A DNA stretch of 64,000 nt from Corallium rubrum (taxonomy: Eukaryota > Cnidaria > Anthozoa > Scleralcyonacea > Coralliidae), in NCBI GenBank assembly GCA_964035015.1, contig CAXIUP010000107.1, positions 555,001 to 619,000 on the forward strand. Direction: 5' to 3'. Below, in pieces: positions 17,165 to 51,966 of the stretch (the stretch's first letter is position 1; the number at the start of each line of letters is the position of its first letter). Position numbers and translations under genes: made by a program. Below the pieces are notes generated by a model. It was given only the letters and a program-made list of their open reading frames with translations, was not told the origin of the DNA and ran no database searches.

Positions 17165-17416
17165 CAATCACTGACAAAATTAGTTGAAACGACTTGAGTG
17201 AATCATGCCATGTTAATTGCTAGGCCTCTTTTTTGCATGAATTGCTATCCCCCCGTCCCCCCTTTTCAATGTTGATACTCTGAACATTTAAATGTAATGG
17301 CAGGTGACTGAGTGCAAATTGCAAACGTTCTGAGGTCCACAACATTGAAGTGGGGGTTAGGGGGAACATGAAACCATTTCATGTTAGCTTTGTTTCAAGA
17401 ATTATGTCAATGATTG
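17165..17416. repeat. Left bookend module (252 bp, palindromic)
   Basis: Outer inverted repeats CAATCACTGACAAAATTAGT and their complement. An inner inverted pair follows: CCCCCCTTTTCAATGTTGA and CAACATTGAAGTGGGGG. Repeated in direct orientation at 19195-19446. Confidence 0.9.
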
Positions 17417-19194
17417 TCTGAGAACAAATTGGACGCAAACACAACAGATTTAATTCATAAAAATCCATTTTCTCTGATGGATTGACCATTAATGTTTTAA
17501 AATATGCTAAAGAAGAATATGTGGTTAGTTCGTTTATATGCATATTATATTGTCGAACGGGATTACAATAATTTTTTTGTAAGCATTTGAAGTTAAAGTT
17601 TTATGCGATGAGCAAGCGATTAATTACAGTTGTAGCCATTTAAAAGAAGTTGCGTATGCCACGGCTCACAGGCATAATGATCTATGTGACAAAACAAGTC
17701 GAAGAAGCCACTCTAGTTAAGAAATTATCAAGTCATTTAGAAAAAGATTAGTAGTTTGATAAAGGAACTCTCGTCCTATTGAATTTCTATAGAACCGTGG
17801 CGAAGTCGAGTGGCTCATGTGTCGCTGGTTGCTCAATTACTTTGAATGATCATTTTTCGCGAAAGAACATAGTGGAATTAGTGTGGCAGCATAACAGGAA
17901 TTATTCGTAAATAAAATTTAAGCGTCAGGAATAACATGGAATTTAGGTGGTTTCTGCAATCGATCGTATACGATTACGTTCAACCTGAGAAATGAGCAAT
18001 CTCCCAGGTGATCTATCGCAACATGGCGCCTTGCTGCTTAGCATTCGCTATATTGGACAAATAAATAGTGTTATAGAATTATTTCGAGTGAAGTGAACTG
18101 TTTATAGTAATTTCTTAGCTACATCGTTTTATATCAATTCAGTTTACCATATCAATTCTGTATTTTGCCACACTTTACCACACTTTACCACGCTTTACCA
18201 TGCTTATGTTAATAAATTAGATTATGATTCTTTTATATATGCAGATTATGGTAAAGTGTGGTAAAGTGTACTAAATTTTAGTGTAAGTATATGGTAAAGT
18301 GTGATCAAATGCAACAATTATGTCCACTTAATGCTTAAATAGAGCTAAAGTTTAAAAACATCTTTGTGTAACGAATATTTCAGTTGATATTGCACTGAAT
18401 ATTATGCGAAGTTCGTGGTAAAGTGTGGTAAACTGAGCTTAATTTTAGCGGTCTCGTACACAGCAAAGTGCAATGATATCTTAGAAGTATATATGTGTTG
18501 TCAACTATTTGTCAACTATTTGTAATGGTAAAAGTATAAGGAGAAATGTTTGGGTATCGATTATTTTTGTTGAAATCGAGCTGAACTCCTCGATTCATTG
18601 TTTATTTATGTTCCTTGACATATGAGCTCTTTTATAACACGGGTGCCAGTTGTAACTTGAGATGAATTCGAAGCCTTGGATAATTATTCTATTGACAAGT
18701 TTTTAATGAATGCAACTGGTGAAAGAATTTTTTCCCCCTTGCTGCAAACAATTTGTTCTGTTCTTTTGGGCATTAACTTAAGACAATTTCTTCCCGACTT
18801 TTCTCTTTATATCAGCATGAATGGTCAAATATTTTTATGATTTGCGCAAGTGCAGGGTATACATTATCCTTCATGATAGGTCTGCAATAAAGTTATTGGC
18901 ATATTTTAATTTTACGTGTAGGTTTTGTGTCAAAATTATAAATTCATCATGGAAATACAGAGAGCGTGCGCAGCTTTTAAACCGACAATAATTTTGAACC
19001 TGATTTCCGCGTAGTGACAGTTAACATTAGGACGTCATGGTGACGTCATGTAATTAACCTTTAAAATTATCGTTTGTTGTTAGCGATCAATATATGTGTT
19101 AAATGTATGTGAGATCACTTTGCGCAGTCGTGGGTAAAATATGCCGTTTCTCTGCAACGAAAAATGTACGGAGAATTATTAACGTAAATTCAGA
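17417..19194. other. Interior of the composite element, no coding frame
   Basis: No open frame with a recognisable domain in 1778 bp. It holds the TTTACCACAC cluster and otherwise AT-rich sequence. It shares only the short edge motifs (TC at the left; TTCAGA at the right) with the array units at 35.6-52 kb. Confidence 0.7.
18167..18435. repeat. TTTACCACAC motif cluster in the element interior
   Basis: Four or more forward copies of CACACTTTACCA/CACTTTACCACG (about 18167-18205) face reverse copies TGGTAAAGTGTGGTAAAGTG (about 18249-18268), then further reverse copies near 18291-18302 and 18416-18433. The arrangement is an iterated inverted cluster about 1 kb inside the element. Confidence 0.8.
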
Positions 19195-19446
19195 CAATCA
19201 CTGACAAAATTAGTTGAAACGACTTGAGTGAATCATGCCATGTTAATTGCTAGGCCTCTTTTTTGCATGAATTGCTATCCCCCCGTCCCCCCTTTTCAAT
19301 GTTGATACTCTGAACATTTAAATGTAATGGCAGGTGACTGAGTGCAAATTGCAAACGTTCTGAGGTCCACAACATTGAAGTGGGGGGAAGGGGGAACATG
19401 AAACCATTTCATGTTAGCTTTGTTTCAAGAATTATGTCAATGATTG
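19195..19446. repeat. Right bookend module (252 bp, palindromic)
   Basis: Direct copy of 17165-17416. One visible difference is GGGGGGAAGGGGG here against GGGGGTTAGGGGG at the left. It ends ...GTCAATGATTG and is followed by the TA target and the resumed pol frame. The first 22 residues of the open frame beginning at 19380 come from this module and are not part of Pol. Confidence 0.9.
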
Positions 19447-19448
19447 TA

Positions 19449-22400
19449 TGTGCGGACGTGAACAGTCAAATCGAGCACCTACCCGGACTGGCTTGTCTGC
19501 ATTACCCTGGAGCTATTCGACCGATTGTCGAAAAATTACCAGCCTCTCTAAGATCGAAATGGGAGAAAGAAGTCGCCAAACACGCCGAGAGTCACCATGA
19601 TGCCCACCCAGGCTTTAGTATTTTTACTCGGGTAGTAAAAGCTCGAGCGACGATCAAGAACCATCCAAACATTCTCGCAGGCAGCCCTCAGAAACCTGTC
19701 TTTGAAAGACGCAGAGGAAACCCGAGAGATCAAAGGGCCCTGAGGACAAACTTGGACAGCGACGAGGACACCCCCCAGAACCGACCACCAAATGCCAAGA
19801 AGTGGTGCCCCTACCACGAGTGCGATCGTCATGGACTAACTGAGTGCAAAGCCTTTGCAGCGAAATCTCTGAATGAAAAGACAGATTGGATCCAAAAAGC
19901 CAGACTCTGTTTTCGGTGCCTCAAAGAGGGACATCAAGCCAAAAAGTGCGATGCCAAGATTAGTTGCACCATTTGTGGAAACGATCGTCACCTCGCTCTC
20001 CTACACAAAGGAAAAGTAGACAGAGATAGTGAAGATGAAAAGAACACACAAATCGACGGCGAGGAGGATACAACGGATCAAGTAAACAATACATGCACAG
20101 CCGTGTGCAGAGATAACGACGGTGGCGTTTCCTGTAGTAAAATCTTGCTGGTGGATATTGTCAGCCCGGACGAACCAAGTGTATCCTGTCGAGCATATGC
20201 GATTATTGACGATCAAAGTAACAGCTCTCTCATCAGCAGCGAACTAGCCGACAAGCTTGGAGCAAACGGACCGAAAGAAAAATATTACCTATCAATCTGC
20301 AGCGGTAATAGAGAAACCAAGTTTGGTCGACGAGTTTCCGGTCTAGTCATACGATCTGCGTCGAATGGTAGAGAGGCACAATTACCAACACTCGTTGAAT
20401 GTGAAAATTTCCCTGATGACAAGAAAGAGATACCCACCCCTGAGGTAGCAAGGAAGTTTCCCCATCTTCAGGACATTGCTCGAGAAATTCCACCAATAGA
20501 CGAAAGTGCGGGCCTGCACATCCTCTTGGGTCGCGACGCAAGTGAGCTGCTGAAGGTTCGAGCATTCAAGAACGGACCAAAGGGTGCCCCCTGGGCGCAG
20601 AAGCTGTTGTTAGGTTGGACCATCACTGGTCAAATGTGCTTGAATTACTTGAATGGACCCGTCCACATCGAAGCTCGTAGGACAAGCACCACTTCAAGTA
20701 GCAGTAACGAGGCACACGTAGCTGCAGCTCCAACCTCCACGAAAGTTGATGGTGTAGAATACTACGTTGTTCCATGTCCAAATCAAATGAAGATTACGGA
20801 CAGCGTCACGGGTAGTAACGTGTTTTGCTCAACTCCGCTCGATAACGAAGTCAGCCTTTCTATCGAAGACCGGAAATTTATCGAGATGATGGAGAAACAG
20901 ATACGTAAAAACAGTACTGGACACTGGGAAATGCCCCTGCCATTTCGCCAAACAGACACTGCTTTGCCCAACAACCGCGTTCAAGCTGTTCATCGCCTAA
21001 ACGGTCTGCTGAAGACACTGAAACGAAAGCCACAAATGGAGAAGGACTACCTAGAGTTCATGGAGACAATGATCAGTAAGGGACATGCAACTCCTGTTCC
21101 ACGAGAGGAAATAAAAGGTCAGCACGGTCGGGTTTGGTATCTACCACACTTCGGAGTGTATCACCCCAAGAAACCGACCAAGGTACGTGTTGTGTTCGAT
21201 GCATCGGCCGAGTTCGATGGCGTTTCGTTGAACAAGGTTCTGTTACCTGGTCCTGATCTCATGAATAGCTTGCTTGGCGTTCTGATTCGTTTCCGCAGAG
21301 AAAGAGTAGGAGTTATGTGCGACATCGAGCAGATGTTTTATTCCTTCTACGTCGACCCTGAACATCGGGACTATCTGCGGTTTCTGTGGTACCGAGACAA
21401 CGACCCCCAGAAGCAAGTGATCGAGTATCGCATGAATGTCCATCTCTTCGGCAACGGACCAAGCCCGGCAGTGGCCACCTTTGGGCTGAGAAAGACCGCA
21501 TTGGAGGGAGAAGAGAAGCACGGCGAGGAGGTTAAAGATTTCGTGTACCGTAACTTTTACGTCGACGATGGCCTAGCGTCTCTTCCTACCGATGAAGAAG
21601 CAGTTAACCTCATCATCAGTGCTCAAAACGTCCTCGCAACGTCGAACCTAAGGCTGCACAAAGTCGTTTCCAACTCTGTACGTGTTATGGAAGCTTTCTC
21701 GACCGAAGACAGAGCGAAAGCCTTACGCGATTTAGATCTCCATCGGGATATTCTTCCAGCCCAGCGATCCCTGGGAGTCTATTGGAACCTCGAGAACGAC
21801 GTGTTGACATTCCACATTTCCCTGCCCGACAAGCCCTTCACTCGTAGAGGAGTTCTTTCGGTGATCAACAGCGTGTACGATCCCCTTGGAATGGCAGCTC
21901 CGGCTGTTCTCGAAGGCAGAAAGCTGCTACAGCATCTGGTAGCTACGAGCAAAGGGACGGCCGAGGAAACTCCGCTTGCATGGGACGATCGTCTCCCTGA
22001 AAAGATCATGAGTCGATGGCAGTGTTGGAAAGATTCCCTCGAAGACCTGCAACATGTCTCTGTTCCTAGATGCTACCGTCCGAACAGCTTTGGCACAACA
22101 GCGAGAGCAGAGCTTCACGGTTTCTCGGACGCGAGTAAGGACGCGATTGGAGCAGCAGTCTACCTAAAGCTTTGGAACAAGAAAAACGAAGTGTCAGTGT
22201 CGTTCGTCTACGGGCAAGCAAGATTAGCCCCGATACATCCTGTCAGCATACCTCGCCTGGAGTTATGTGGAGCAGTCTTAGTAGTCGAAGCGGTGCAGAA
22301 GGTGTTAAAAGAGATTGACCTCAAAATCGCAGAAGTCACCTATTACACTGATTCGAAGGTAGTCCTAGGCTACATTGCTAACGAAGGCAAGCGTTTCTAC

Positions 22401-24278: not shown

Positions 24279-24307
24279 CAAGGATGTAGTCATCCTTGGG
24301 CGAGGAG

Positions 24308-28923: not shown

Positions 28924-28995
28924 AATTTGGTCAAACGATTTGAAAGATTGTGATGACCCAACATGGCTATATTCAGCATCTGTGCCAGCTAGATT

Positions 28996-30342
28996 TCAAT
29001 TTAAATTAATATATTTTCTAAAGTTAGCAGCTAAACTAATCGTTCCATTCAGATTAAGATGAAGGCCTCCAGCGTTAAGTGAATCCTGCTTAATATTGTC
29101 ATTACAAATGTAATCAAATTTATTATTTGAGCAATTATCTCTCAAGCATTCATTCACCTGTTTAATCTTAGAGTTCAACGATGTATCATCGGATCTGTAA
29201 ATAATCGATGAGATGGCTATATCTACAGAAGAATGCTCCTTTCTGATATTATTAGCCAAATCAACAATTTTTCTACTTAATTGTCTAGGTTTATCCTGAC
29301 GAAGATTATTAGTACCAACATGAATAATAATTTTTTTAGGCTTTTGTCTAACAATCGGCTTGACAAAATCTTCCATATCAGCTACCGATGCACCGGGACA
29401 GTGCATACTAGTTACTTTATGCTTTCTAGAAAGTCGTCTCCCCTGTATATACTTGGTCATAGAATCCCCAACAACGAACATTTCACTATGTTGCTTACCT
29501 CCCGATAAATGAGATGAAGAAGGCTTACCATTTTTGTCATCCTGGCCTTTTTGGGAAGAAGAAGGACTATTATTTTTGTTCGACTTAGAGGTTTCAGCCG
29601 ATTTACCTTTCACCTGAGCTTCTTTAAAGCTTGCAGGTGGTTTGTCTTCTGTCGACTTCACATCCCTCATCAAAAGCTTCAAAGCTGTTAACAAACTATT
29701 CCGTTCTTCCTTCATAGTGTTGTAATTCGAGAGTAACTCTTCGTAAGATGCCTCGTGAACCTTTGAATTTACTTTACGCTCCAGGACGTCCAGTCTCAGA
29801 ATTAGCGATTCAATAACCAAACTATTCTTTTGGCAGTCCCGACAAGTATTACTTGATAAAAAGTTGTTGTTACATCGCTGACAAACATCTTCAATATTAT
29901 CTTCATGAAGATCATTTTTAGACACTAGAACGACGTCGGGGGTTTCTTCCACGTCAACAGTAAGGCACACAGAATCTGCTTGACTTTCGACTTCAACATC
30001 GACAGCAATCTGTAATTCATCCTCCCCAGTTGAATCTTCTATTAAATTAACAAGACTTAACAAGTTCATTTTAACAACATCTTTCATAGCCCCTTGCACA
30101 TTGATGGTGTTGGTGCTGGGATGATAAGAAATGGTCACGGTTTCACATTTTAAGACGTGAAATCCACCATTGCTACTGATGAAAGACCATTCTCCCGATA
30201 ATTTCAATTAGGCTTCAATGAATGATTTCAGGTCGACAAAGTCTCCAATCCATTTTAGTCGTACAAGTTCGTCAATAATTTCACTTCTTGGTTGATTATG
30301 AATACGTTTAAGCACTTCTGCCAAAAGTAACAAGTCTGACAT
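28996..30342 (-). pseudogene. CR1-like LINE ORF1 (SGNH/esterase type), one in-frame stop
   Basis: ATG at 30342 starts MSDLLLLAEVLKRIH and WIGDFVDLKSFIEA. A TAA at 30208-30210 interrupts, and the same frame continues LKLSGEWSFIS for 403 codons. Features in order: a Cys knuckle (CQRCNNNFLSSNTCRDC), a heptad-like coiled region (SLILRLDVLERKVNSKV), a Ser/Lys-rich linker, and a C-terminal SGNH/GDSL hydrolase domain with VVGDSMTKYI (catalytic Ser), IIIHVGTNNLRQD (the G-x-N box) and AGGLHLNLNGT (catalytic His). This domain is typical of CR1 ORF1 proteins. Apart from the single stop it is well preserved. Confidence 0.88.
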
Positions 30343-35146: not shown

Positions 35147-35305
35147 TATATTACCAACTGTCAAGAGAAGCACCACGCTCCTAGAAACTTTGCACTATCC
35201 TTGGCATCTAGTTAAGATATATTGAATATATTGACGTTAATGTTAAATGCTTTTAAAAATGTTTATTTTCTCTCAGTCATTGATGTGTTGAATGACATGT
35301 TTCAG

Positions 35306-35566
35306 GGTGTGTTATATTATGCACACCTACATGTGTAAGATAACACACATCAGGGCATGTTGCATGACACACCTTTTTATTAACACACCTATATATAATA
35401 ACACATCTTGGTTATATAACATACCAAGGTGTGTTATTTGATGTGTTAAATAACACACCAAGGTGTGTTTGAAAACCGACCAAGGTGTGTGCAATAACAC
35501 ACCTTCTCACAAAGCACACCTTAGGGTGTGTCAAGATTTGGACAAGATGAAAAAACAAACTTACTA
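35306..35566. repeat. AAGGTGTGTT palindrome island, left part
   Basis: Many copies of ACACACC and GGTGTGT in both orientations (for example AACACACCAAGGTGTGTT near 35450-35470). The block ends with TTTGGACAAGA and then CTTACTA; the final TA (35565-35566) is the target site of the big tandem array. The other part of the island is at 51967-52095. Confidence 0.85.
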
Positions 35567-36013
35567 CAATCAGTGACAAAACCCTTCGGACATTTCTCCT
35601 AATTAAAGGATATATCCCCCCCCCCTTTTCTTCAATGTTGAATGGCCAAAGTATCGCTGTCTGCATTACACATGCCTTCATAACTACATGATCTTGTTGT
35701 ACACCAACATTGAAAAGCGGGGGGGAGGGGGTCAACGAATTATGTTTATGTAATTTTCCATAAAATAAATTATTATTTAATGTGCCCAAAGAGGTTTTGT
35801 CACTAATTGTCCGGGGGGAAAAAAGAGTCAATTTCGCTTAAGTGTTTCCTCCTCAACTATACAGAAATACAATATGATATTTCATGAACGTTTGCATGCA
35901 ACTGCACAAAAATATATCTCCTTAAATAATAATTCTTATAAGCATACTAATTTAATGATGTCATAATAGCACTCTTTTAAGATCTTGCTGGAGGAAAGCG
36001 TTTACACTTACTA

Positions 36014-36283
36014 GTGGCTATAGTGCATGGAAAAGGTGTTATTTATGAAGAGGTATATGAAAAGATGTCTGTACAATATTTTGCCCAGTTTATACGTCGA
36101 TCGTTTGCAATTCTTTTTGAAATTGCCGGTAAGGGAGAATGTGACAACAAAATATTTGTGATGCACAATGAGCCGTCACAGACGTCAGCGAAAGCAAAAC
36201 GTGCCTTCCGCTCTGTTAACGCAGCAATGCGAACAATTCAGCCAAGATCTCCTGACCTGACAAACACGCAGAACGAGTTTTAG
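36014..36283 (+). pseudogene. Array unit 1 transposase fragment (early stop)
   Basis: The frame actually enters upstream with GGKRLHLL after an in-frame TAA, so it is a fragment without the HTH and first Asp region. It reads VHGKGVIYEEVYEKMSVQYF, IFVMHNEPSQTS and PRSPDLTNTQNEF, matching the end of Tc1/IS630-type DDE domains (usual form V-x-D-N-x-P-x-H/Q-x and S-P-D-L-N-P-I-E-N). Here the catalytic Asp of VMDN is changed to His and the Glu position is Gln. TAG replaces the Trp codon after NEF. Confidence 0.8.
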
Positions 36284-37485
36284 AAATGGCTTCTCAAATG
36301 AAAGACAACTGATGAACCAATGAGCCGCCGTTGTGGGACTTGCGGATAATCGTATCGTGTTACTTGTTTAAGTAACAGAAATGAAACGCTAGTGTTTGAT
36401 GAAGGAACCAGTGTTTTACCGGTGTTTCACAGCCCATTCGCGTAACGAAATGGAGCTGTCTGATTGAGTAAAATCCTCATGAATTATTAATGAATTTGAG
36501 AACGATTTACGGTTTACACTCAACATAATTAATATATATTCAATAGTTTTATTCAAATAGGTGTAAATCGTTAACCGTGTCGGCAATTAATTAGGCGACT
36601 CTTGAAGATCAGACACTCTCCTACATCATATTTAAACAACACATGTAAATGCAATATACAACAATATACAACAGATAAGATGCGTCAAGGGGCATAGTTA
36701 TTGCAACATGACACACGTTCAGGGGTATCTATATTCTACTTGTTTTCATGGCATCGTGTTTATTAACGTAAAACTGAATACGCGAGCTATTAACGCTGCA
36801 TTGACCCTGTTAGAGTTTCACACCCTTGCGACCACCCTCCATTGCATATATATATATATATGGAAAACAGGGATTACCCAATCTCGCAAAGAGCCGTTAA
36901 ACAGGTACCAAAATCTTATAAAATACTTTTCGCAGTGAAAACAGGAGTTCGGACGTTTGGACATATAAACTTCTCTAAAATAATAAGATAAAAGTCAGCG
37001 AAAGGATCACCCGTGAGTATAAATACGACCTTTTCGTTTTCAGACAATCAGTGACAAAACCCTCTGGACATTTATCCTAATTAAAGGATATCTCCCCCCC
37101 CCCCCCCCCTTTTCAATGTTTAATGGCCAAAGTATCGCTGTCTACATTACACATGCCTTCATAACTACATGATCTTGTTGTACACCAACATTGAAAAGCG
37201 GGGAGGGGGTCAACGGATTATGTTTATGTAATTTTCCATAAAATAAATTATTATTTAATGTGTCTGAAGAGGTTTTGTCACTAATTGTCCAGGGGGAAAA
37301 AAGAGTCGCTTAAGTGTTTCCTCCTCAACTATACAGAAATACAATATGATATTTCATGAACGTTTGCATGCAACTGCACAAAAATATATCTCCTTAAATA
37401 ATAATTCTTATAAGCATATTAATTTAATGATGTCATAATAGCGCTCTTTTAAGATCTTGGTGGAGGAAAGCGTTTACACTTACTG

Positions 37486-37773
37486 GTGGCTATGGTGCAT
37501 GGAAAAGGTGTTATTTATGAAGAGGTATATGAAAAGATGTCTGTACAATATTTTGCCCAGTTTATACGTCGATCGTTTGCAATTCTTTTTGAAATTGCCG
37601 GTAAGGGAGAATGTGACAACAAAATATTTGTGATGCACAATGAGCCGTCACAGACGTCAGCGAAAGCAAAACGTGCCTTGCGCTCTGTTAACGCAGCAAT
37701 GCGAACAATTCAGCCAAGATCTCCTGACCTGACAAACACGCAGAACGAGTTTTGGAAATGGCTTCTCAAATGA
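37486..37773 (+). pseudogene. Array unit 2 transposase fragment
   Basis: 95-codon fragment ending FWKWLLK. It carries VMHN (Asp lost) and AKAKRALRS. It shares MHN with units 1 and 10. Confidence 0.8.
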
Positions 37774-38950
37774 AAGACAACTGATGAACCAATGAGCCGC
37801 CGTTGTGGGACTTGCGGATAATCGTATCGTGTTACTTGTTTAAGTAACAGAAATGAAACGCTAGTGTTTGATGAAGAAACCAGTGCTTTACCGGTGTTTC
37901 ACAGCCCATTCACGTGACGAAATGGAGCTGTCTGATTGAGTAAAATCCTCATGAATTATTAATGAATTTGAGAACGATTTACGGTTTACACTCAACATAA
38001 TTAATATATATTCAATAGTTTTATTCAAATAGGTGTAAATCGTTAACCGTGTCGGCAATTAATTAGGCGACTCTTGAAGATCAGACACTCTCCTACATCA
38101 TATTTAAACAACACATGTAAATGCAATATACAACAATATACAACAGATAAGATGCGTCACGGGGCATAGTTATTGCAACATGACACACGTTCAGGGGTAT
38201 CTATATTCTACTTGTTTTCATGGCATCGTGTTTATTAACGTAAAACTGAATACGCGAGCTATTAACGCTGCATTGACCCTGTTAGAGTTTCACACCCTTG
38301 CGACCGCCCTCCATTGTATATATATATATGGAAAACAGGGATTACCCAATCTCGCAAAGAGCCGTTGAACAGGTACCAAAATCTTATAAAATAGTTTTCG
38401 CAGTGAAAACAGGAGTTCGGACGTTTGGACATATAAACTTCTCTAAAATAATAAGATAAAAGTCAGCGAAAGGATCACCCGTGAGTATAAATAAGACCTT
38501 TTCGTTTTCAGACAATCAGTGACAAAACCCTTTGGACATTTCTCCTAATTAAAGGATATATCTCCCCCCCCTTTTCAATGTTTAATGGCCAAAGTATCGC
38601 TGTCTACATTACGCATGCCTTCATAACTACATGATCTTGTTGTACACCAACATTGAAAAGCGGGGAGGGGGTCAACGGATTATGTTTATGTAATTTTCCA
38701 TAAAATAAATTATTATTTAATGTGTCTGAAGAGGTTTTGTCACTAATTGTCCGGAAAAAAAAAGTCAATTTCGCTTAAGTGTTTCCTCCTCAACTATACA
38801 GAAATACAATATGATATTTCATGAACGTTTGCATGCAACTGCACAAAAATATATCTCCTTAAATAATAATTCTTATAAGCATACTAATTTAATGACGTCA
38901 TAATAGCGCTCTTTTAAGATCTTGCTGGAGGAAAGCGTTTACACTTACTA

Positions 38951-39157
38951 GTGGCTATAGTGCATGGAAAAGGTGTTATTTATGAAGAGGTATATGAAAA
39001 GATGTCTGTACAATATTTTGCCCAGTTTATACGTCGATCGTTTGCAATTCTTTTTGAAATTGCCGGTAAGGGAGAATGTGACAACAAAATATTTGTGATG
39101 GACAATGAGCCGTCACAGACGTCAGTGAAAGCAAAACCGTGCCTTGCGCTCTGTTAA
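38951..39157 (+). pseudogene. Array unit 3 transposase fragment (frameshift)
   Basis: VMDN retained; a one-base insertion in AAAACCGTGCC shifts the frame, giving KPCLALC and a stop. Confidence 0.8.
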
Positions 39158-40415
39158 CGCAGCAATGCGAACAATTCAGCCAAGATCTCCTGACCTGACA
39201 AACACGCAGAACGAGTTTTGGAAATGGCTTCTCAAATGAAAGACAACTGATGAACCAATGAGCCGCCGTTGTGGGACTTGCGGATAATCGTATCGTGTTA
39301 CTTGTTTAAGTAACAGAAATGAAACGCTAGTGTTTGATGAAGAAACCAGTGCTTTACCGGTGTTTCACAGCCCATTCACGTGACGAAATGGACCTGTCCG
39401 ATTGAGTAAGATCCTCATGAATTATTAATGAATTTGAGAACGACTTACGTTTTACACTCAACATAATTAATATATATTCAATAGTTTTATTCAAATAGGT
39501 GTAAATCGTTAACCGTGTCGGCAATTAATTAGGTGACTCTTGAAGATCAGACACTCTCCTACATCATATTTAAACAACACATGTAAATGCAATATACAAC
39601 AATATACAACAGATAAGATGCGTCACGGGGCATAGTTATTGCAACATGACACACGTTCAGGGGTATCTATATTCTACTTGTTTTCATGGCATCGTGTTTA
39701 TTAACGTAAAACTGAATACGCGAGCTATTAACGCTGCATTGACCCTGTTAGAGTTTCACACCCTTGCGACCGCCCTCCATTGTATATATATATATGGAAA
39801 ACAGGGATTACCCAATCTCGCAAAGAGCCGTTAAACAGGTACCAAAATCTTATAAAATAATTTTCGCAGTGAAAACAGGAGTTCAGACGTTTGGACATAT
39901 AAACTTCTCTAAAATAATAAGATAAAAGTCAGCGAAAGGATCACCCGTGAGTATAAATAAGACCTTTTCGTTTTCAGACAATCAGTGACAAAACCCTTTG
40001 GACATTTCTCCTAATTAAAGAATATCTTCCCCCCCCTTTTCAATGTTTAATGGCCAAAGTATCGCTGTCTACATTAGGCATGCCTTCATAACTACATGAT
40101 CTTGTTGTACACCAACATTGAAAAGCGGGGAGGGGGTCAACGGATTATGTTTATGTAATTTTCCATAAAATAAATTATTATTTAATGTGTCTGAAGAGGT
40201 TTTGTCACTAATTGTCCGGAAAAAAAAAGTCAATTTCGCTTAAGTGTTTCCTCCTCAACTATACAGAAATACAATATGATATTTCATGAACGTTTGCATG
40301 CAACTGCACAAAAATATATCTCCTTAAATAATAATTCTTATAAGCATACTAATTTAATGACGTCATAATAGCGCTCTTTTAAGATCTTGCTGGAGGAAAG
40401 CGTTTACACTTACTA

Positions 40416-40703
40416 GTGGCTATAGTGCATGGAAAAGGTGTTATTTATGAAGAGGTATATGAAAAGATGTCTGTACAATATTTTGCCCAGTTTATACGTC
40501 GATCGTTTGCAATTCTTTTTGAAATTGCCGGTAAGGGAGAATGTGACAACAAAATATTTGTGATGGACAATGAGCCGTCACAGACGTCAGTGAAAGCAAA
40601 CCGTGCCTTGCGCTCTGTTAACGCAGCAATGCGAACAATTCAGCCAAGATCTCCTGACCTGACAAACACGCAGAACGAGTTTTGGAAATGGCTTCTCAAA
40701 TGA
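40416..40703 (+). pseudogene. Array unit 4 transposase fragment
   Basis: 95 codons, VMDN retained, VKANRALRS variant, shared with units 6 and 7. Confidence 0.8.
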
Positions 40704-41885
40704 AAGACAACTGATGAACCAATGAGCCGCCGTTGTGGGACTTGCGGATAATCGTATCGTGTTACTTGTTTAAGTAACAGCAATGAAACGCTACTGTTTG
40801 ATGAAGAAACCAGTGCTTTACCGGTGTTTCACAGCCCATTCACGTGACGAAATGGACCTGTCCGATTGAGTAAAATCCTCATGAATTATTAATGAATTTG
40901 AGAACGATTTACGGTTTACACTCAACATAATTAATATATATTCAATAGTTTTATTCAAATAGGTGTAAATCGTTAACCGTGTCGGCAATTAATTAGGTGA
41001 CTCTTGAAGATCAGACACTCTCCTACATCATATTTAAACAACACATGTAAATGCAATATACAACAATATACAACAGATAAGATGCGTCACGGGGCATAGT
41101 TATTGCAACATGACACACGTTCAGGGGTATCTATATTCTACTTGTTTTCATGGCATCGTGTTTATTAACGTAAAACTGAATACGCGAGCTATTAACGCTG
41201 CATTGACCCTGTTAGAGTTTCACACCCTTGCGACCGCCCTCCATTGTATATATATATATGGAAAACAGGGATTACCCAATCTCGCAAAGAGCCGTTAAAC
41301 AGGTACCAAAATCTTATAAAATAGTTTTCGCAGTGAAAACAGGAGTTCGGACGTTTGGACATATAAACTTCTCTAAAATAATAAGATAAAAGTCAGCGAA
41401 AGGATCACCCGTGAGTATAAATAAGACCTTTTCGTTTTCGGACAATCAGTGACAAAACCCTTTGGACATTTCTCCTAATTAAAGGATATCTATCTCCCCC
41501 CCCCCCTTTTCAATGTTTAATGGCCAAAGTATCGCTGTCTACATTACGCATGCCTTCATAACTACATGATCTTGTTGTACACCAACATTGAAAAGCGGGG
41601 AGGGGGTCAACGGATTATGTTTATGTAATTTTCCATAAAATAAATTATTATTTAATGTGTCCGAAGAGGTTTTGTCACTAATTGTCCGGGGGAAAAAAGT
41701 CAATTTCGCTTAAGTGTTTCCTCCTCAACTATACAGAAATACAATATGATATTTCATGAACGTTTGCATGCAACTGCACAAAAATATATCTCCTTAAATA
41801 ATAATTCTTATAAGCATACTAATTTAATGACGTCATAATAGCGCTCTTTTAAGATCTTGCTGGAGGAAAGCGTTTACACTTACTA

Positions 41886-42131
41886 GTGGCTATAGTGCAT
41901 GGAAAAGGTGTTATTTATGAAGAGGTATATGAAAAGATGTCTGTACAATATTTTGCCCAGTTTATACGTCGATCGTTTGCAATTCTTTTTGAAATTGCCG
42001 GTAAGGGAGAATGTGACAACAAAATATTTGTGATGGACAATGAGCCGTCACAGACGTCAGCAAAGCAAAACGTGCCTTGCGCTCTGTTAACGCAGCAATG
42101 CGAACAATTCAGCCAAGATCTCCTGACCTGA
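41886..42131 (+). pseudogene. Array unit 5 transposase fragment (frameshift)
   Basis: VMDN retained; a one-base loss (TCAGCAAAGCAAAACG) shifts to KQNVPCALL and an early stop. Confidence 0.8.
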
Positions 42132-43353
42132 CAAACACGCAGAACGAGTTTTGGAAATGGCTTCTCAAATGAAAGACAACTGATGAACCAATGAGCCGCC
42201 GTTGTGGGACTTGCGGATAATCGTATCGTGTTACTTGTTTAAGTAACAGAAATGAAACGCTAGTGTTTGATGAAGAAACCAGTGCTTTACCGGTGTTTCA
42301 CAGCCCATTCACGTGACGAAATGGAGCTGTCTGATTGAGTAAAATCCTCATGAATTATTAATGAATTTGAGAACGATTTACGGTTTACACTCAACATAAT
42401 TAATATATATTCAATAGTTTTATTCAAATAGGTGTAAATCGTTAACCGTGTCGGCAATTAATTAGGTGACTCTTGAAGATCAGACACTCTCCTACATCAT
42501 ATTTAAACAACACATGTAAATGCAATATACAACAATATACAACAGATAAGATGCGTCACGGGGCATGTTATTGCAACATGACACACGTTCAGGGGTATCT
42601 ATATTCTACTTGTTTTCATGGCATCGTGTTTATTAACGTAAAACTGAATACGCGAGCTATTAACGCTGCATTGACCCTGTTAGAGTTTCACACCCTTGCG
42701 ACCGCCCTCCATTGTATATATATATATATGGAAAACAGGGATTACCCAATCTCGCAAAGAGCCGTTAAACAGGTACCAAAATCTTATAAAATAGTTTTCG
42801 CAGTGAAAACAGGAGTTCGGACGTTTGGACATATAAACTTCTCTAAAATAATAAGATAAAAGTCAGCGAAAGGATCACCCGTGAGTATAAATAAGACCTT
42901 TTCGTTTTCAGACAATCAGTGACAAAACCCTTTGGACATTTCTCCTAATTAAAGGATATCTCCCCCCCCCCTCTTTTTCAATGTTTAATGGCCAAAGTAT
43001 CGCTGTCTACATTAGGCATGCCTTCATAACTACATGATCTTGTTGTACACCAACATTGAAAAGCGGGGAGGGGGTCAACGGATTATGTTTATGTAATTTT
43101 CCATAAAATAAATTATTATTTAATGTGTCTGAAGAGGTTTTGTCACTAATTGTCTGGAAAAAAAAAGTAAATTTCGCTTAAGTGTTTCCTCCTCAACTAT
43201 ACAGAAATACAATATGATATTTCATGAACGTTTGCATGCAACTGCACAAAAATATATCTCCTTAAATAATAATTCTTATAAGCATACTAATTTAATGACG
43301 TCATAATAGCGCTCTTTTAAGATCTTGCTGGAGGAAAGCGTTTACACTTACTA

Positions 43354-43641
43354 GTGGCTATAGTGCATGGAAAAGGTGTTATTTATGAAGAGGTATATGA
43401 AAAGATGTCTGTACAATATTTTGCCCAGTTTATACGTCGATCGTTTGCAATTCTTTTTGAAATTGCCGGTAAGGGAGAATGTGACAACAAAATATTTGTG
43501 ATGGACAATGAGCCGTCACAGACGTCAGTGAAAGCAAACCGTGCCTTGCGCTCTGTTAACGCAGCAATGCGAACAATTCAGCCAAGATCTCCTGACCTGA
43601 CAAACACGCAGAACGAGTTTTGGAAATGGCTTCTCAAATGA
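43354..43641 (+). pseudogene. Array unit 6 transposase fragment
   Basis: Same 95-codon form as unit 4 (VMDN, VKANRALRS). Confidence 0.8.
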
Positions 43642-44817
43642 AAGACAACTGATGAACCAATGAGCCGCCGTTGTGGGACTTGCGGATAATCGTATCGTGT
43701 TACTTGTTTAAGTAACAGAAATGAAACGCTAGTGTTTGATGAAGAAACCAGTGCTTTACCGGTGTTTCACAGCCCATTCACGTGACGAAATGGAGCTGTC
43801 TGATTGAGTAAAATCCTCATGAATTACTAATGAATTTGAGAACGATTTACGGTTTACACTCAACATAATTAATATATATTCAATAGTTTTATTCAAATAG
43901 GTGTAAATCGTTAACCGTGTCGGCAATTAATTAGGTGACTCTTGAAGATCAGACACTCTCCTACATCATATTTAAACAACACATGTAAATGCAATATACA
44001 ACAATATACAACAGATAAGATGCGTCACGGGGCATAGTTATTGCAACATGACACACGTTCAGGGGTATCTATATTCTACTTGTTTTCATGGCATCGTGTT
44101 TATTAACGTAAAACTGAATACGCGAGCTATTAACGCTGCATTGACCCTGTTAGAGTTTCACACCCTTGCGACCGCCCTCCATTGTATATATATATGGAAA
44201 ACAGGGATTACCCAATCTCGCAAAGAGCCGTTAAACAGGTACCAAAATCTTATAAAATAGTTTTCGCAGTGAAAACAGGAGTTCAGACGTTTGGACATAT
44301 AAACTTCTCTAAAATAATAAGATAAAAGTCAGCGAAAGGATCACCCGTGAGTATAAATAAGACCTTTTCGTTTTCAGACAATCAGTGACAAAACCCTTTG
44401 GACATTTCTCCTAATTAAAGGATATCTCCCCCCCCCCTTTTCAATGTTTAATGGCCAAAGTATCGCTGTCTACATTACGCATGCCTTCATAACTACATGA
44501 TCTTGTTGTACACCAACATTGAAAAGCGGGGAGGGGGTCAACGGATTATGTTTATGTAATTTTCCATAAAATAAATTATTATTTAATGTGTCTGAAGAGG
44601 TTTTGTCACTAATTGTCCGGAAAAAAAAAAGTCAATTTCACTTAAGTGTTTCCTCCTCAACTATACAGAAATACAATATGATATTTCATGAACGTTTGCA
44701 TGCAACTGCACAAAAATATATCTCCTTAAATAATAATTCTTATAAGTATACTAATTTAATGACGTCATAATAGCGCTCTTTTAAGATCTTGCTGGAGGAA
44801 AGAGTTTACACTTACTA

Positions 44818-45105
44818 GTGGCTATAGTGCATGGAAAAGGTGTTATTTATGAAGAGGTATATGAAAAGATGTCTGTACAATATTTTGCCCAGTTTATACG
44901 TCGATCGTTTGCAATTCTTTTTGAAATTGCCGGTAAGGGAGAATGTGACAACAAAATATTTGTGATGGACAATGAGCCGTCACAGACGTCAGTGAAAGCA
45001 AACCGTGCCTTGCGCTCTGTTAACGCAGCAATGCGAACAATTCAGCCAAGATCTCCTGACCTGACAAACACGCAGAACGAGTTTTGGAAATGGCTTCTCA
45101 AATGA
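44818..45105 (+). pseudogene. Array unit 7 transposase fragment
   Basis: Same 95-codon form as units 4 and 6. Confidence 0.8.
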
Positions 45106-46285
45106 AAGACAACTGATGAACCAATGAGCCGCCGTTGTGGGACTTGCGGATAATCGTATCGTGTTACTTGTTTAAGTAACAGCAATGAAACGCTAGTGTT
45201 TGATGAAGAAACCAGTGCTTTACCGGTGTTTCACAGCCCATTCACGTGACGAAATGGACCTGTCCGATTGAGTAAAATCCTCATGAATTATTAATGAATT
45301 TGAGAACGACTTACGTTTTACACTCAACATAATTAATATATATTCAATAGTTTTATTCAAATAGGTGTAAATCGTTAACCGTGTCGGCAATTAATTAGGT
45401 GACTCTTGAAGATCAGACACTCTCCTACATCATATTTAAACAACACATGTAAATGCAATATACAACAATATACAACAGATAAGATGCGTCACGGGGCATA
45501 GTTATTGCAACATGACACACGTTCAGGGGTATCTATATTCTACTTGTTTTCATGGCATCGTGTTTATTAACGTAAAACTAAATACGCGAGCTATTAACGC
45601 TGCATTGACCCTGTTAGAGTTTCACACCCTTGCGACCGCCCTCCATTGTATATATATATATGGAAAACAGGGATTACCCAATCTCGCAAAGAGCCGTTAA
45701 ACAGGTACCAAAATCTTATAAAATAGTTTTCGCAGTGAAAACAGGAGTTCAGACGTTTGGACATATAAACTTCTCTAAAATAATAAGATAAAAGTCAGCG
45801 AAAGGATCACCCGTGAGTATAAATAAGACCTTTTCGTTTTCAGACAATCAGTGACAAAACCCTTTGGACATTTCTCCTAATTAAAGGATATCTCCCCCCC
45901 CCCCCTTTTCAATGTTTAATGGCCAAAGTATCGCTGTCTACATTACGCATGCCTTCATAACTACATGATCTTGTTGTACACCAACATTGAAAAGCGGGGA
46001 GGGGGTCAACGGATTATGTTTATGTAATTTTCCATAAAATAAATTATTATTTAATGTGTCCAAAGAGGTTTTGTCACTAATTGTCCGGAAAAAAAAAAGT
46101 CAATTTCGCTTAAGTGTTTCCTCCTCAACTATACAGAAATACAATATGATATTTCATGAACGTTTGCATGCAACTGCACAAAAATATATCTCCTTAAATA
46201 ATAATTCTTATAAGCAAACTAATTTAATGATGTCATAATAGCGCTCTTTTAAGATCTTGCTGGAGGAAAGCGTTTACACTTACTA

Positions 46286-46573
46286 GTGGCTATAGTGCAT
46301 GGAAAAGGTGTTATTTATGAAGAGGTATATGAAAAGATGTCTGTACAATATTTTGCCCAGTTTATACGTCGATCGTTTGCAATTCTTTTTGAAATTGCCG
46401 GTAAGGGAGAATGTGACAACAAAATATTTGTGATGGACAATGAGCCGTCACAGACGTCAGCAAAAGCAAAACGTGCCTTGCGCTCTGTTAACGCAGCAAT
46501 GCGAACAATTCAGCCAAGATCTCCTGACCTGACAAACACGCAGAACGAGTTTTGGAAATGGCTTCTCAAATGA
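46286..46573 (+). pseudogene. Array unit 8 transposase fragment
   Basis: 95 codons, VMDN with AKAKRALRS; matches unit 9. Confidence 0.8.
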
Positions 46574-47755
46574 AAGACAACTGATGAACCAATGAGCCGC
46601 CGTTGTGGGACTTGCGGATAATCGTATCGTGTTACTTGGTTTAAGTAACAGCAATGAAACGCTAGTGTTTGATGAAGAAACCAGTGCTTTACCGGTGTTT
46701 CACAGCCCATTCACGTGACGAAATGGACCTGTCCGATTGAGTAAAATCCTCATGAATTATTAATGATTTGAGAACGACTTACGTTTTACACTCAACATAA
46801 TTGATATATATTCAATAGTTTTATTCAAATAGGTGTAAATCGTTAACCGTGTCGGCAATTAATTAGGTGCCTCTTGAAGATCAGACACTCTCCTACATCA
46901 TATTTAAACAACACATGTAAATGCAATATACAACAATATACAACAGATAAGATGCGTCACGGGGCATAGTTATTGCAACATGACACACGTTCAGGGGTAT
47001 CTATATTCTACTTGTTTTCATGGCATCGTGTTTATTAACGTAAAACTAAATACGCGAGCTATTAACGCTGCATTGACCCTGTTAGAGTTTCACACCCTTG
47101 CGACCGCCCTCCATTGTATATATATATATGGAAAACAGGGATTACCCAATCTCGCAAAGAGCCGTTAAACAGGTACCAAAATCTTATCAAATAGTTTTCG
47201 CAGTGAAAACAGGAGTTCGGACGTTTGGACATATAAACTTCTCTAAAATAATAAGATAAAAGTCAGCGAAAGGATCACCCGTGAGTATAAATAAGACCTT
47301 TTCGTTTTCAGACAATCAGTGACAAAACCCTTTGGACATTTCTCCTAATTAAAGGATATCTCCCCCCCCCCCCCCCTTTTCAATGTTTAATGGCCAAAGT
47401 ATCGCTGTCTACATTACGCATGCCTTCATAACTACATGATCTTGTTGTACACCAACATTGAAAAGCGGGGAGGGGGTCAACGGATTATGTTTATGTAATT
47501 TTCCATAAAATAAATTATTATTTAATGTGTCCGAAGAGGTTTTGTCACTAATTGTCCGGGGGAAAAAAGTCAATTTCGCTTAAGTGTTTCCTCCTCAACT
47601 ATACAGAAATACAATATGATATTTCATGAACGTTTGCATGCAACTGCACAAAAATATATCTCCTTAAATAATAATTCTTATAAGCAAACTAATTTAATGA
47701 TGTCATAATAGCGCTCTTTTAAGATCTTGCTGGAGGAAAGCGTTTACACTTACTA

Positions 47756-48043
47756 GTGGCTATAGTGCATGGAAAAGGTGTTATTTATGAAGAGGTATAT
47801 GAAAAGATGTCTGTACAATATTTTGCCCAGTTTATACGTCGATCGTTTGCAATTCTTTTTGAAATTGCCGGTAAGGGAGAATGTGACAACAAAATATTTG
47901 TGATGGACAATGAGCCGTCACAGACGTCAGCAAAAGCAAAACGTGCCTTGCGCTCTGTTAACGCAGCAATGCGAACAATTCAGCCAAGATCTCCTGACCT
48001 GACAAACACGCAGAACGAGTTTTGGAAATGGCTTCTCAAATGA
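47756..48043 (+). pseudogene. Array unit 9 transposase fragment
   Basis: Same form as unit 8. It also shares AAGCAAACTAATTTAATG just upstream, so units 8 and 9 look like recent sisters. Confidence 0.8.
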
Positions 48044-49219
48044 AAGACAACTGATGAACCAATGAGCCGCCGTTGTGGGACTTGCGGATAATCGTATCGT
48101 GTTACTTGTTTAAGTAACAGAAATGAAACGCTAGTGTTTGATGAAGAAACCAGTGCTTTACCGGTGTTTCACAGCCCATTCACGTGACGAAATGGAGCTG
48201 TCCGATTGAGTAAAATCCTCATGAATTATTAATGAATTTGAGAACGATTTACGGTTTACACTCAACATAATTAATATATATTCAATAGTTTTATTCAAAT
48301 AGGTGTAAATCGTTAACCGTGTCGGCAATTAATTAGGTGACTCTTGAAGATCAGACACTCTCCTACATCATATTTAAACAACACATGTAAATGCAATATA
48401 CAACAATATACAACAGATAAGATGCGTCACGGGGCATGTTATTGCAACATGACACACGTTCAGGGGTATCTATATTCTACTTGTTTTCATGGCATCGTGT
48501 TTATTAACGTAAAACTGAATACGCGAGCTATTAACGCTGCATTGACCCTGTTAGAGTTTCACACCCTTGCGACCGCCCTCCATTGTATATATATATATGG
48601 AAAACAGGGATTACCCAATCTCGCAAAGAGCCGTTAAACAGGTATCAAAATCTTATAAAATAGTTTTCGCAGTGAAAACAGGAGTTCGGACGTTTGGACA
48701 TATAAACTTCTCTAAAATAATAAGATAAAAGTCAGCGAAGGGATCACCCGTGAGTATAAATAAGACCTTTTCGTTTTCAGACAATCAGTGACAAAACCCT
48801 TTGGACATTTCTCCTAATTAAAGAATATCTCCCCCCCCCTTTTCAATGTTTAATGGCCAAAGTATCGCTGTCTACATTAGGCATGCCTTCATAACTACAT
48901 GATCTTGTTGTACACCAACATTGAAAAGCGGGGAGGGGGTCAACGAATTATATTTATGTAATTTTCCATAAAATAAATTATTATTTAATGTGTCTGAAGA
49001 GGTTTTGTCACTAATTGTCCGGAAAAAAAAAAGTAAATTTCGCTTAAGTGTTTCCTCCTCAACTATACAGAAATACAATATGATATTTCATGAACGTTTG
49101 CATGCAACTGCACAAAAATATATCTCCTTAAATAATAATTCTTATAAGCATATTAATTTAATGATGTCATAATAGCGCTCTTTTAAGATCTTGCTGGAGG
49201 AAAGCGTTTACACTTACTA

Positions 49220-49489
49220 GTGGCTATGGTGCATGGAAAAGGTGTTATTTATGAAGAGGTATATGAAAAGATGTCTGTACAATATTTTGCCCAGTTTATA
49301 CGTCGATCGTTTGCAATTCTTTTTGAAATTGCCGGTAAGGGAGAATGTGACAACAAAATATTTGTGATGCACAATGAGCCGTCACAGACGTCAGCGAAAG
49401 CAAAACGTGCCTTGCGCTCTGTTAACGCAGCAATGCGAACAATTCAGCCAAGATCTCCTGACCTGACAAACACGCAGAACGAGTTTTAG
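49220..49489 (+). pseudogene. Array unit 10 transposase fragment (early stop)
   Basis: VMHN as in units 1 and 2, and the same TAG after NEF as in unit 1. Confidence 0.8.
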
Positions 49490-50687
49490 AAATGCCTTCT
49501 CAAATGAAAGACAACTGATGAACCAATGAGCCGCCGTTGTGGGACTTGCGGATAATCGTATCGTGTTACTTGTTTAAGTAACAGAAATGAAACGCTAGTG
49601 TTTGATGAAGAAACCAGCGTTTTACCGGTGTTTCACAGCCCATTCACGTGACGAAATGGAGCTGTTTGATTGAGTAAAATCCTCATGAATTAGTAATGAA
49701 TTTGAGAACGATTTACGGTTTACACTCAACATAATTAATATATATTCAATAGTTTTATTCAAATAGGTGTAAATCGTTAACCGTGTCGGCAATTAATTAG
49801 GCGACTCTTGAAGATCAGACACTCTCCTACATCATATTTAAACAACACATGTAAATGCAATATACAACAATATACAACAGATAAGATGCGTCAAGGGGCA
49901 TAGTTATTGCAACATGACACACGTTCAGGGGTATCTATATTCTACTTGTTTTCATGGCATCGTGTTTATTAACGTAAAACTGAATACGCGAGCTATTAAC
50001 GCTGCATTGACCCTGTTAGAGTTTCACACCCTTGCGACCGCCCGCCATTGTATATATATATATGGAAAACAGGGATTACCCAATCTCGCAAAGAGCCGTT
50101 AAACAGGTACCAAAATCTTATAAAATAGTTTTCGCAGTGAAAACAGGAGTTCGGACGTTTGGACATATAAACTTCTCTAAAATAATAAGATAAAAGTCAG
50201 CGAAAGGATCACCCGTGAGTATAAATAAGACCTTTTTCGTTTTCAGACAATCAGTGACAAAACCCTTCGGACATTTCTCCTAATTAAAGGATACATCCCC
50301 CACCCCCCCTTTTCAATGTTTAATGGGCAAAGTATCGCTGTTTACATTATGCATGCCTTCATAACTACATGATCTTGTTGTACACCAACATTGAAAAGCG
50401 GGCAGGGGGTCAACGGATTATGTTTATGTAATTTTCCATGAAATAAATTATTACTTAATGTGTCCGAAGAGGTTTTGTCACTAATTGTCCGGAAAAAAAA
50501 GTCAATTTCGCTTAAGTGTTTCCTCCTCAACTATACAGAAATACAATATGATATTTCATGAACGTTTGCATGCAACTGCACAAAAATATATCTCCTTAAA
50601 TAATAATTCTTATAAGCATACTAATTTAATGACGTCATAATAGCACTCTTTTAAGATCTTGCTGGAGGAAAGCGTTTACACTTACTA

Positions 50688-50906
50688 GTGGCTATAGTGC
50701 ATGGAAAAGGTGTTATTTATGAAGAGGTATATGAAAAGATGTCTGTACAATATTTTGACCAGTTTATACGTCGATCGTTTGCAATTATTTTTGAAATTGC
50801 CGGTAAGGGAGAATGTGACAACAAAATATTTGTGATGGGCAATGAGCCGTCACAGACGTCGGCGAAAGCAAAATGTGCCTTGCGCTCTGTTAACGCAGCA
50901 ATGTGA
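50688..50906 (+). pseudogene. Array unit 11 transposase fragment (early stop)
   Basis: The most diverged fragment: VMGN, FDQFIRRSFAIIF, and TGA replacing the codon after NAAM. This unit also has the longest TA tract (about 51515-51545). Confidence 0.8.
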
Positions 50907-51511
50907 ACAATTCAGCCAAGATCTCCTGACCTGACAAACACGCAGAACGAGTTTTGGAAATGGCTTCTCAAATGAAAGACAACTGATGAACCAATGAGCC
51001 GACGTTGTGGGACTTGCGGATAATCGTATCGTGTTACTTGTTTAAGTAACAGAAATGAAACGCTAGTGTTTGACGAAGAAACCAGTGTTTTACCGGTGTT
51101 TCACAGCCCATTCACGTGACGAAATGGAGCTGTTTGATTGAGTAAAATCCTCATGAATTATTAATGATTTGAGAACGATTTACGGTTTACACTCAACATA
51201 ATTAATATATATTCAATAGTTTTATTCAAATAGGTGTAAATCGTTAACCGTGTCGGCAATTAATTAGGCGACTCTTGAAGATCAGACACTCTCCTACATA
51301 TTTAAACAACACATGTAAATGCAATATACAACAATATACAACAGATAAAACGCGTCAAGGGGCATAGTTATTGCAACATGACACACGTTCAGGGGTATCT
51401 ATATTGTACTTGTTTTCATGGCATCGTGTTTATTAACCTAAAACTGAATACGCGAGCTATTAACGCTGCATTGACCCTGTTAGAGTTTCACACCCTTGCG
51501 ACTGCCCTCCA

Positions 51512-51547
<36 letters not shown>

Positions 51548-51728
51548 AAAACAGGGATTACCCAATCTCGCAAAGAGCCGTTAAACAGGTACCAAAATCT
51601 TATAAAATAGTTCTCGCAGTGAAAACAGGAGTTCGGACGTTTGGACATATAAACTTCTCTAAAATAATAAGGTAAAAGTCAGCGAAAGGATCACCCGTGA
51701 GTATAAATAAGACCTTTTCGTTTTCAGA

Positions 51729-51966
51729 CAATCAGTGACAAAACCCTTTGGACATTTCTCCTAATTAAAGGATATATCCCCCCCCTCCTTTTCAATGTTG
51801 AATGGCCAAAGTATCGCTGTCTACATTACGCATGCCGTCATAACTACATGATCTTGTTGTACACCAACATTGAAAAAGGGGGAGGGGGTCAGCGGATTAT
51901 GTTTATGTAATTTTCCATAAAATAAATCATTATTTAATGTGTCCGAAGAGGTTTTGTCACTAATTG
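51729..51966. repeat. Terminal (12th) bookend module closing the array
   Basis: 238 bp, CAATCAGTGACAAAACCC...GAGGTTTTGTCACTAATTG, followed by the closing TA. It shares AATGTTGAATGG with the first module at 35567, where all inner modules have AATGTTTAATGG. Confidence 0.9.

Follow-up and report, generated by a model that had tools for sequence, protein, structure and literature searches.

Cut-and-paste transposons with DDE enzymes and rolling-circle replicons with HUH enzymes are as a rule regarded as two distinct worlds. In a 64,000-nucleotide stretch of the genome of the anthozoan Corallium rubrum (assembly GCA_964035015.1, contig CAXIUP010000107.1, positions 555,001 to 619,000 of the forward strand; hereafter the window) there are two elements, one near 17 kb and one an array, bounded by palindromic modules that all point the same way; an intact relative elsewhere in the genome carries, between two such modules, a Tc1-like transposase gene and a gene for a putative Rep protein. 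The transposase half resembles Tc1/mariner (IS630-Tc1-mariner, DD34E Tc1 group) in its DDE_3 domain, DD34E spacing, inverted ends and outer TA. Tc1/mariner, however, is defined by one gene and one inverted repeat per end, whereas here a Rep gene is added, the ends take the form of palindromic direct repeats of 250 bp that units have in common, and the arrays vary in length. The Rep half resembles the Rep of circular Rep-encoding single-stranded (CRESS) DNA viruses and parvoviruses (HUH endonuclease plus superfamily 3 (SF3) helicase) in its HUH, YxxK and Walker A motifs, but adjoins a Tc1-like transposase and, in the intact copy, is accompanied by no visible capsid gene and matches the viral families below cut-off.

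Several other systems share single traits with the element. Replitrons and Helitrons are likewise eukaryotic transposons that encode an HUH enzyme, but the Helitron helicase belongs to superfamily 1, and the element described here differs from both in having terminal inverted repeats (TIRs), a TA target, a DDE transposase and an SF3-like helicase. In one account (PMC10741241), Replitrons are TIR-less, with direct ends of 5-11 bp and target-site duplications (TSDs) of 2-8 bp, and Helitrons are without TIR and without TSD and insert between A and T. Head-to-tail arrays of a Tc1-like element are known as the Bari1 clusters of Drosophila, for which a circle with rolling-circle-like copying has been proposed (PMC8834629); the heterochromatic Bari1 clusters are ascribed to error-prone transposition, whereas the present arrays are regular, genome-wide, and belong to an element with Rep. 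The logic of inserting a concatenated replicon recalls Teratorn, a piggyBac-herpesvirus fusion for which PMC10175614 proposes that replicon DNA in concatenated form, with transposon copies on its flanks, is inserted by transposition, but Teratorn joins a 180-kb herpesvirus to piggyBac and differs in its size and its unrelated enzymes. Finally, long terminal repeat (LTR) elements such as Cassandra form arrays of the form R-I-R-I-R with shared terminal direct repeats (PMC7215508), in contrast to the hairpin repeats, Tc1-type ends, TA target, and transposase and Rep genes found here. Titles and abstract openings among the literature matches listed contained no Tc1-Rep chimera and no element with both enzymes, and a text search of PMC6213432 for Tc1, mariner and DDE found nothing. 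The parts belong to known families, while their combination and layout fit no family that we compared by definition, within a literature scope that leaves aside Repbase, preprints and subscription papers. To judge from its sequence it is probably half Tc1-like transposon and half rolling-circle replicon, and we hypothesize (with a probability of roughly 0.55) that it represents a class of animal transposons that pass through a replicating stage, in which a circle is freed, Rep drives rolling-circle copying from the palindromic repeat, and the Tc1-type transposase inserts concatemers of any length at TA.

The palindromic module and its junctions

The module (M) is ~250 bp long and folds as a full-length hairpin with the termini CAATCA.TGACAAAA. 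Its plan is common to the four families that we distinguish, namely alpha (the window array), beta, gamma and delta (the element near 17 kb): an outer inverted pair starting from CAATCA.TGACAAAA, then a C-tract accompanied by CAATGTTG or a closely similar sequence, a loop, and the complement. One module folded from each family gave z of -6.4, -6.0, -5.5 and -5.7 for the full-length hairpin; half-modules folded alone gave no hairpin signal. The module coordinates, direct orientation and palindromic ends put forward in the original prediction for both window elements hold to the base (Table 1), with modules of 252 bp each near 17 kb and twelve modules of 236-243 bp in the array, where they alternate with eleven interiors (I) of 1225-1241 bp at an interior start-to-start period of 1464-1472 bp. 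Allowing two mismatches, the terminus CAATCASTGACAAAA occurs 28 times in the window, against a mean of 0.63 and a largest count of 3 in 100 shuffles; its exact form has 942 copies in the 474-Mb assembly against 1 for a reversed control pattern, and a relaxed inner pattern, with at most one mismatch allowed, matches at 2033 places, compared with 14 for its own control.

Layouts were read in 40 stretches of contig C1 and four short ones, here named by L-numbers; partial loci and single ends among the 40 (L012, L017, L018, L026, L029, L033, L036, L038, L042 and L047) were left out of the counts. M occurs alone, as M-I-M, and as head-to-tail arrays M(IM)n. Twenty solo candidates on C1, minus L037 and L045, which are ends of multi-module elements, leave 18, with TA on the left in all 18 and on the right in 16; three of these share flanking sequence, probably as duplicates of a single insertion. 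Outer TA is present on both sides of every multi-module element read at both ends, 11 in all: the two window loci, L011 (n = 2), L013/L014 (nine modules, n = 8), L025, L028, L031, L034/L035 (six modules, n = 5), L044, L050 and L051+L037, with L009, L045 and L049 outside this set. The earlier claim that the module itself is the conserved unit is thus borne out, as it is found singly with TA, as direct pairs and as longer arrays, and modules were neither restricted to the two window loci nor, when paired, mostly inverted or devoid of outer TA.

The inner junctions follow a different rule. AGA precedes 32 of the 33 inner left ends of the eleven elements, all but that of the window module at 41443, and the inner right junctions in the elements read are TCT or TCC. 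Window interiors start with TC in 12/12 (TCTG near 17 kb; ten TCC and a single TCT among the array interiors) and end in AGA in 11/12, with TTCGGA standing before the module at 41443. A common TC start and TTCAGA end had been proposed; the start stands, and the shared part of the end shrinks to AGA, since other families end in TTTAGA or CGCAGA. Genome-wide, 888 of the 942 exact termini have an AGA (422) or TA (466) context. Along C1:1-87.79M, where listed junctions were grouped into clusters of two or more ends, TA is confined to the outermost listed ends in 36/36 clusters (mean 19.9 and maximum 27 in 2000 label shuffles), and it stands on both of them in 20 of the 22 clusters for which both outermost ends are listed. 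A terminus kept out of rule-making, CAATCATTGACAAAA, has 1280 copies against 0 for its control, and in the first 100 of its ends listed, which are unchecked for TA, non-AGA ends are outermost only in 19/20 clusters (shuffle mean 10.0, maximum 15).

Some loci show further particulars. At L009 (3056-3563) two modules are joined head-to-tail with neither an interior nor an AGA/TCT junction. A ~290-bp insert at ~2500-2790 of L031, with ends CATAGTCC and GGGACTATG and CATTGAC on both sides, apparently interrupts the left module at its left end and is taken for a nested insertion. A locus of nine modules over 31.6 kb (G000, C1:20942985-20974547) has one listed transposase match opposite in strand to three others.

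Two convergent genes and their remnants

The intact element (L044, C1:25235000-25244800) is an M-I-M whose 4248-bp interior holds two open, convergent genes on opposite strands. One encodes a transposase of 366 residues that matches DDE_3 above the Pfam cut-off (9.2e-15) and HTH_Tnp_Tc3_2 below it; its nearest solved structure in the PDB is Sleeping Beauty (1.3e-8), and its triad D165, D264 and E299 has 34 residues between the last two (DD34E). The other encodes a protein with YLITYSQ, HYH and YVTK, followed by the Walker A motif GPANTGKT, and we name it Rep from its motifs (HUH, YxxK, Walker A) and their order, because the Pfam matches of the L044 protein all lie below the curated score. Among 16 aligned Reps, H148, H150, Y191, K194, G377, K383 and T384 are invariant or nearly so, and all three motifs occur in order in 106 of the 120 relatives listed (of 611 above threshold). 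Pfam searches with 16 Reps (E up to 0.1) returned REP_ORF2-G2P for 16/16 (best 3e-6), PPV_E1_C for 8, Parvo_NS1 for 6 and Gemini_AL1 for 2; NCBIfam and PHROGs gave nothing informative. Named Rep relatives were seen from Porites evermanni and Acropora millepora, and named relatives of the transposase, which has 875, from Dendronephthya gigantea and Paramuricea clavata; no relatives came up in three IMG/VR scans, the phage and plasmid collections or the prokaryote collection. Another alpha copy, at C1:66736995, is laid out like L044, both of whose proteins it matches at 100%, and we regard the existence of the two-gene element as close to certain.

Two further features of the intact locus deserve mention. 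An open reading frame (ORF) with a Bro-N domain (Pfam 1.4e-50) at 1831-2619 of L044 extends into the left module, and the insertion target may have been another mobile element or a virus-derived gene. A second palindromic segment of ~250 bp (~6347-6596), 81% identical to its own complement, overlaps the 5' end of the Rep ORF, whose true start may be downstream of this segment.

The two genes tend to be found as a pair. Genome searches gave 87 Rep matches in 81 genes, many without an internal stop, and 123 transposase matches in 112 genes; a transposase lies within 2 kb of 58 of the 81 Rep genes, against a chance expectation of 0.12, and these near pairs are tail-to-tail without exception (58/58), with gaps of 362-887 bp (median 617). 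Nearly half of the Rep genes (39/81) stand in 12 same-strand, head-to-tail arrays of ~4-kb units (spacing 3.73 to 4.10 kb). Contig C32 has Rep arrays of seven and six copies at two places, and at C32:10.19M the spacing alternates (4009, 3756, 4005, 3756, 4005). On C1, inner junctions flank Rep-transposase units at 14501066/14504837 and 28644560/28655787.

Remnants of the same genes are found in the shorter interiors. The 1.24-kb interior of the window array is largely an internal deletion of the intact 4.25-kb L044 interior, alignable in four blocks at 85-94% identity, and retains transposase residues 203-302. The gamma arrays L011 and L034/35 contain relics of both genes, with 64-68% (transposase) and 41-55% (Rep) identity to L044, and a gamma Rep piece reaches 82% identity to relatives from elsewhere. 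Judged by these alignments, the alpha and gamma interiors both descend, as remnants, from a single two-gene element rather than being interchangeable cargo. The original prediction that interiors differ is not overturned for beta and delta: the delta interior near 17 kb has no DNA match to the intact interior and a weak transposase trace of 20 residues (E 7e-4 in a small search), and the beta interiors have no gene match beyond chance level. Relative to L044, the ratio of nonsynonymous to synonymous substitution (dN/dS) of the transposase is 0.08-0.09 in gamma (residues 283-366) and 0.07 in L012; over residues 1-133 synonymous sites are saturated. The interior of L028 has a reverse transcriptase domain, taken as a nested insertion because the parts on either side align to the shorter interior of L025.

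A proposed replicating stage and its alternatives

Modules within one element tend to be alike. Left and right modules differ at 0/243 positions in L044, 0/255 in L028, 2/252 in the window element near 17 kb and 5/254 in L025, and trees built from alpha and beta modules place the pair from each of L044, L028, L025 and L009 together. Likewise, the five units of L034/35 differ over 9.8 kb by one indel in total, and the units of L013/14 show a partial period of 3.

We hypothesize that the inverted ends of M, CAATCA.TGACAAAA, are the substrate of the transposase, and that the inner hairpin (C-tract, CAATGTTG) is a candidate origin for Rep. Origins in direct order allow Rep to release one unit as a circle from a linear copy, as in geminivirus partial dimers; two direct modules would be such head-to-tail origins, with Rep starting at the first and stopping at the second to free the circle I+M. 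Rolling-circle copying of I+M would yield the concatemer ...M-I-M-I-M..., with AGA|M|TCT at every junction. From it the transposase would cut a piece that begins at the left end of an M and finishes at the right end of that module or of one further along, and would insert it at TA. The outcome would be M(IM)n with n = 0, 1, 2 and so on, with TA outside, AGA/TCT inside, and the modules of any one young copy alike. Deleted interiors such as those of the window array could be mobilised by the same enzymes, and multimeric circles may account for arrays with alternating or three-step units (C32:10.19M, L013/14). The concatemer model therefore predicts the junction grammar, solo modules, arrays, alike module pairs and near-uniform arrays; its replication step in itself we hold to be probable.

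The principal rival is a cut-and-paste, Tc1-like M-I-M with LTR-like direct repeats, its arrays and solo modules arising later by unequal crossing-over and intra-element recombination, and Rep having another job or copying the element in place. Exchange between modules would preserve outer TA and inner AGA/TCT with no extra assumption, and in the window array the edges have diverged while the middle is alike, as the mixed interior lengths of the array at C1:20.94M would also fit. Crossing-over leaves unexplained, unless conversion is frequent, why modules are alike within single M-I-M copies and differ between loci; near-identical arrays such as L034/35 would have to be very young; and neither the retention of the Rep motifs among the relatives listed nor the adjacency of the transposase in divergent families follows from it. 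We consider this explanation possible but unlikely.

Other readings fare less well. Rep might insert and copy the element by itself, in the manner of a Helitron or Replitron, with the transposase a passenger; HUH enzymes are indeed encoded by Helitron, IS91 and IS200/IS605 transposons (PMC6668415). The transposase is nevertheless conserved (dN/dS 0.07-0.09 wherever it could be calculated, the window relic aside) and convergent with Rep in every near pair. TA on both outer sides, moreover, is what Tc1-family enzymes leave, and we think a Rep acting alone very improbable. A composite of two miniature inverted-repeat transposable elements (MITEs) around arbitrary cargo, as first suggested for the window elements, would agree with solo modules flanked by TA and with beta and delta interiors whose kinship to the two-gene interior is slight or absent. 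That suggestion fails at the inner junctions, because independent MITE insertions would carry inner TA, and AGA and TCT or TCC are found instead in the elements read of all four families; since alpha and gamma interiors also stem from one two-gene element and several copies carry more than two modules, it retains only a slight chance. Least credible is an endogenous single-stranded DNA virus that borrowed a Tc1-like integrase: the Rep motifs would suit it, but in L044 the ORFs of at least 60 residues other than the two genes are all of 105 residues or fewer (spliced genes being possible), with no capsid candidate seen, and three scans of IMG/VR and searches of the phage and plasmid collections found no relatives.

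As to identity with named groups, a virus was rejected on these same grounds, together with the finding of no relative in the prokaryote collection; a Helitron, by TIRs and TA on both sides; a Replitron, by TIRs and full-length palindromic ends of ~250 bp, by the definition given in PMC10741241; and an LTR retroelement, by an L044 interior encoding transposase and Rep, not gag/pol.

Several observations weigh against a replicating stage as we propose it. The circle, the origin and the order of steps are reconstructed from genes, co-location, junctions and likeness that are themselves observed. All Pfam matches of the L044 Rep lie below the gathering score, and against the PDB a sequence search found no relative of it and a profile search one meaningless match. 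No transposase match lies within 2 kb of 23 of the 81 Reps, and 54 of the 112 transposases are without Rep, although divergent partners may be missed because both gene searches score best candidates only. The junction rule has its exceptions: 54 of 942 termini have neither AGA nor TA, one of the 20 CAATCATTGACAAAA clusters violates the end rule, two of the 22 C1 clusters show AGA at one outermost listed end (as when the real outer end is no exact match), and L009 is M-M without an interior. The two modules of L031 are unpaired in the tree, most of whose forks are without strong support, and the period in L013/14 is imperfect. The transposase relic of the window has a dN/dS of 0.64 against L044, as in a decaying copy. 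Within the window array, 10-28 changes separate units 3-9 from one another and up to 54 separate pairs that include an edge unit, 14 sites distinguish the first module from the last, and the C1:20.94M array mixes interiors of ~2.2 and ~4.5 kb. Recombination has therefore acted on at least some arrays, and the alike middle and diverged edges of the window array are a mark of unequal exchange after insertion.

Features of the window and meaning of the element

Coordinates of the modules, interiors and transposase relics are collected in Table 1. The element near 17 kb splits a long gag-pol-like frame (15695-24278, by eye BEL/Pao) between 17164 and 19447, and the array is surrounded by short palindromic repeats of the AACACACCTTAAGGTGTGTT type (35300-35560 and 51967-52100). 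By eye, ORFs at 26692-30207 on the minus strand resemble a non-LTR retrotransposon (endonuclease, reverse transcriptase), and an ORF at 54739-55446 an exonuclease-1-type host nuclease. An opposite-strand ORF pair at 9721-11785 shares a long protein stretch, that is, an inverted duplication, which by eye looks like the end of a GIY-YIG-like (Penelope-like) gene.

Table 1. Modules and interiors of the two window elements (window positions).
Feature	Position	Strand	Remarks
Module M, delta, left	17165..17416	+	outer TA 17163-17164
Interior, delta, TCTG...CAGA	17417..19194	+	weak short transposase trace ~18726-18788 (-)
Module M, delta, right	19195..19446	+	outer TA 19447-19448; 2/252 bases differ from left module
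Module M1, alpha	35567..35809	+	outer TA 35565-35566
Interior 1	35810..37044	+	transposase relic 35981-36280 (residues 203-302)
Module M2	37045..37287	+	
Interior 2	37288..38512	+	transposase relic 37453-37752
Module M3	38513..38749	+	full-length hairpin, z -6.4 (folded as 38509-38753)
Interior 3	38750..39978	+	transposase relic 38918-39218, two pieces
Module M4	39979..40214	+	
Interior 4	40215..41442	+	transposase relic 40383-40682
Module M5	41443..41684	+	preceded by CGGA; sole departure from AGA in array
Interior 5	41685..42912	+	transposase relic 41853-42151, two pieces
Module M6	42913..43152	+	
Interior 6	43153..44378	+	transposase relic 43321-43620
Module M7	44379..44615	+	
Interior 7	44616..45844	+	transposase relic 44785-45084
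Module M8	45845..46083	+	
Interior 8	46084..47312	+	transposase relic 46253-46552
Module M9	47313..47554	+	
Interior 9	47555..48781	+	transposase relic 47723-48022
Module M10	48782..49017	+	
Interior 10	49018..50247	+	transposase relic 49187-49486
Module M11	50248..50487	+	
Interior 11	50488..51728	+	transposase relic 50655-50954
Module M12	51729..51966	+	outer TA 51967-51968

The element would place in context a family of Rep proteins that is without a functional name in its named coral relatives. With both enzymes in one element, retained next to each other in numerous divergent copies within one animal genome, a cut-and-paste transposon would have its own route of multiplication; tandem arrays and satellite DNA would have a possible source, and transposon circles could be tested for by ordinary long-read and exonuclease methods. 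If the hypothesis is true, this is a copy-and-paste DNA transposon that joins DDE and HUH enzymes and builds satellite-like arrays in one act.

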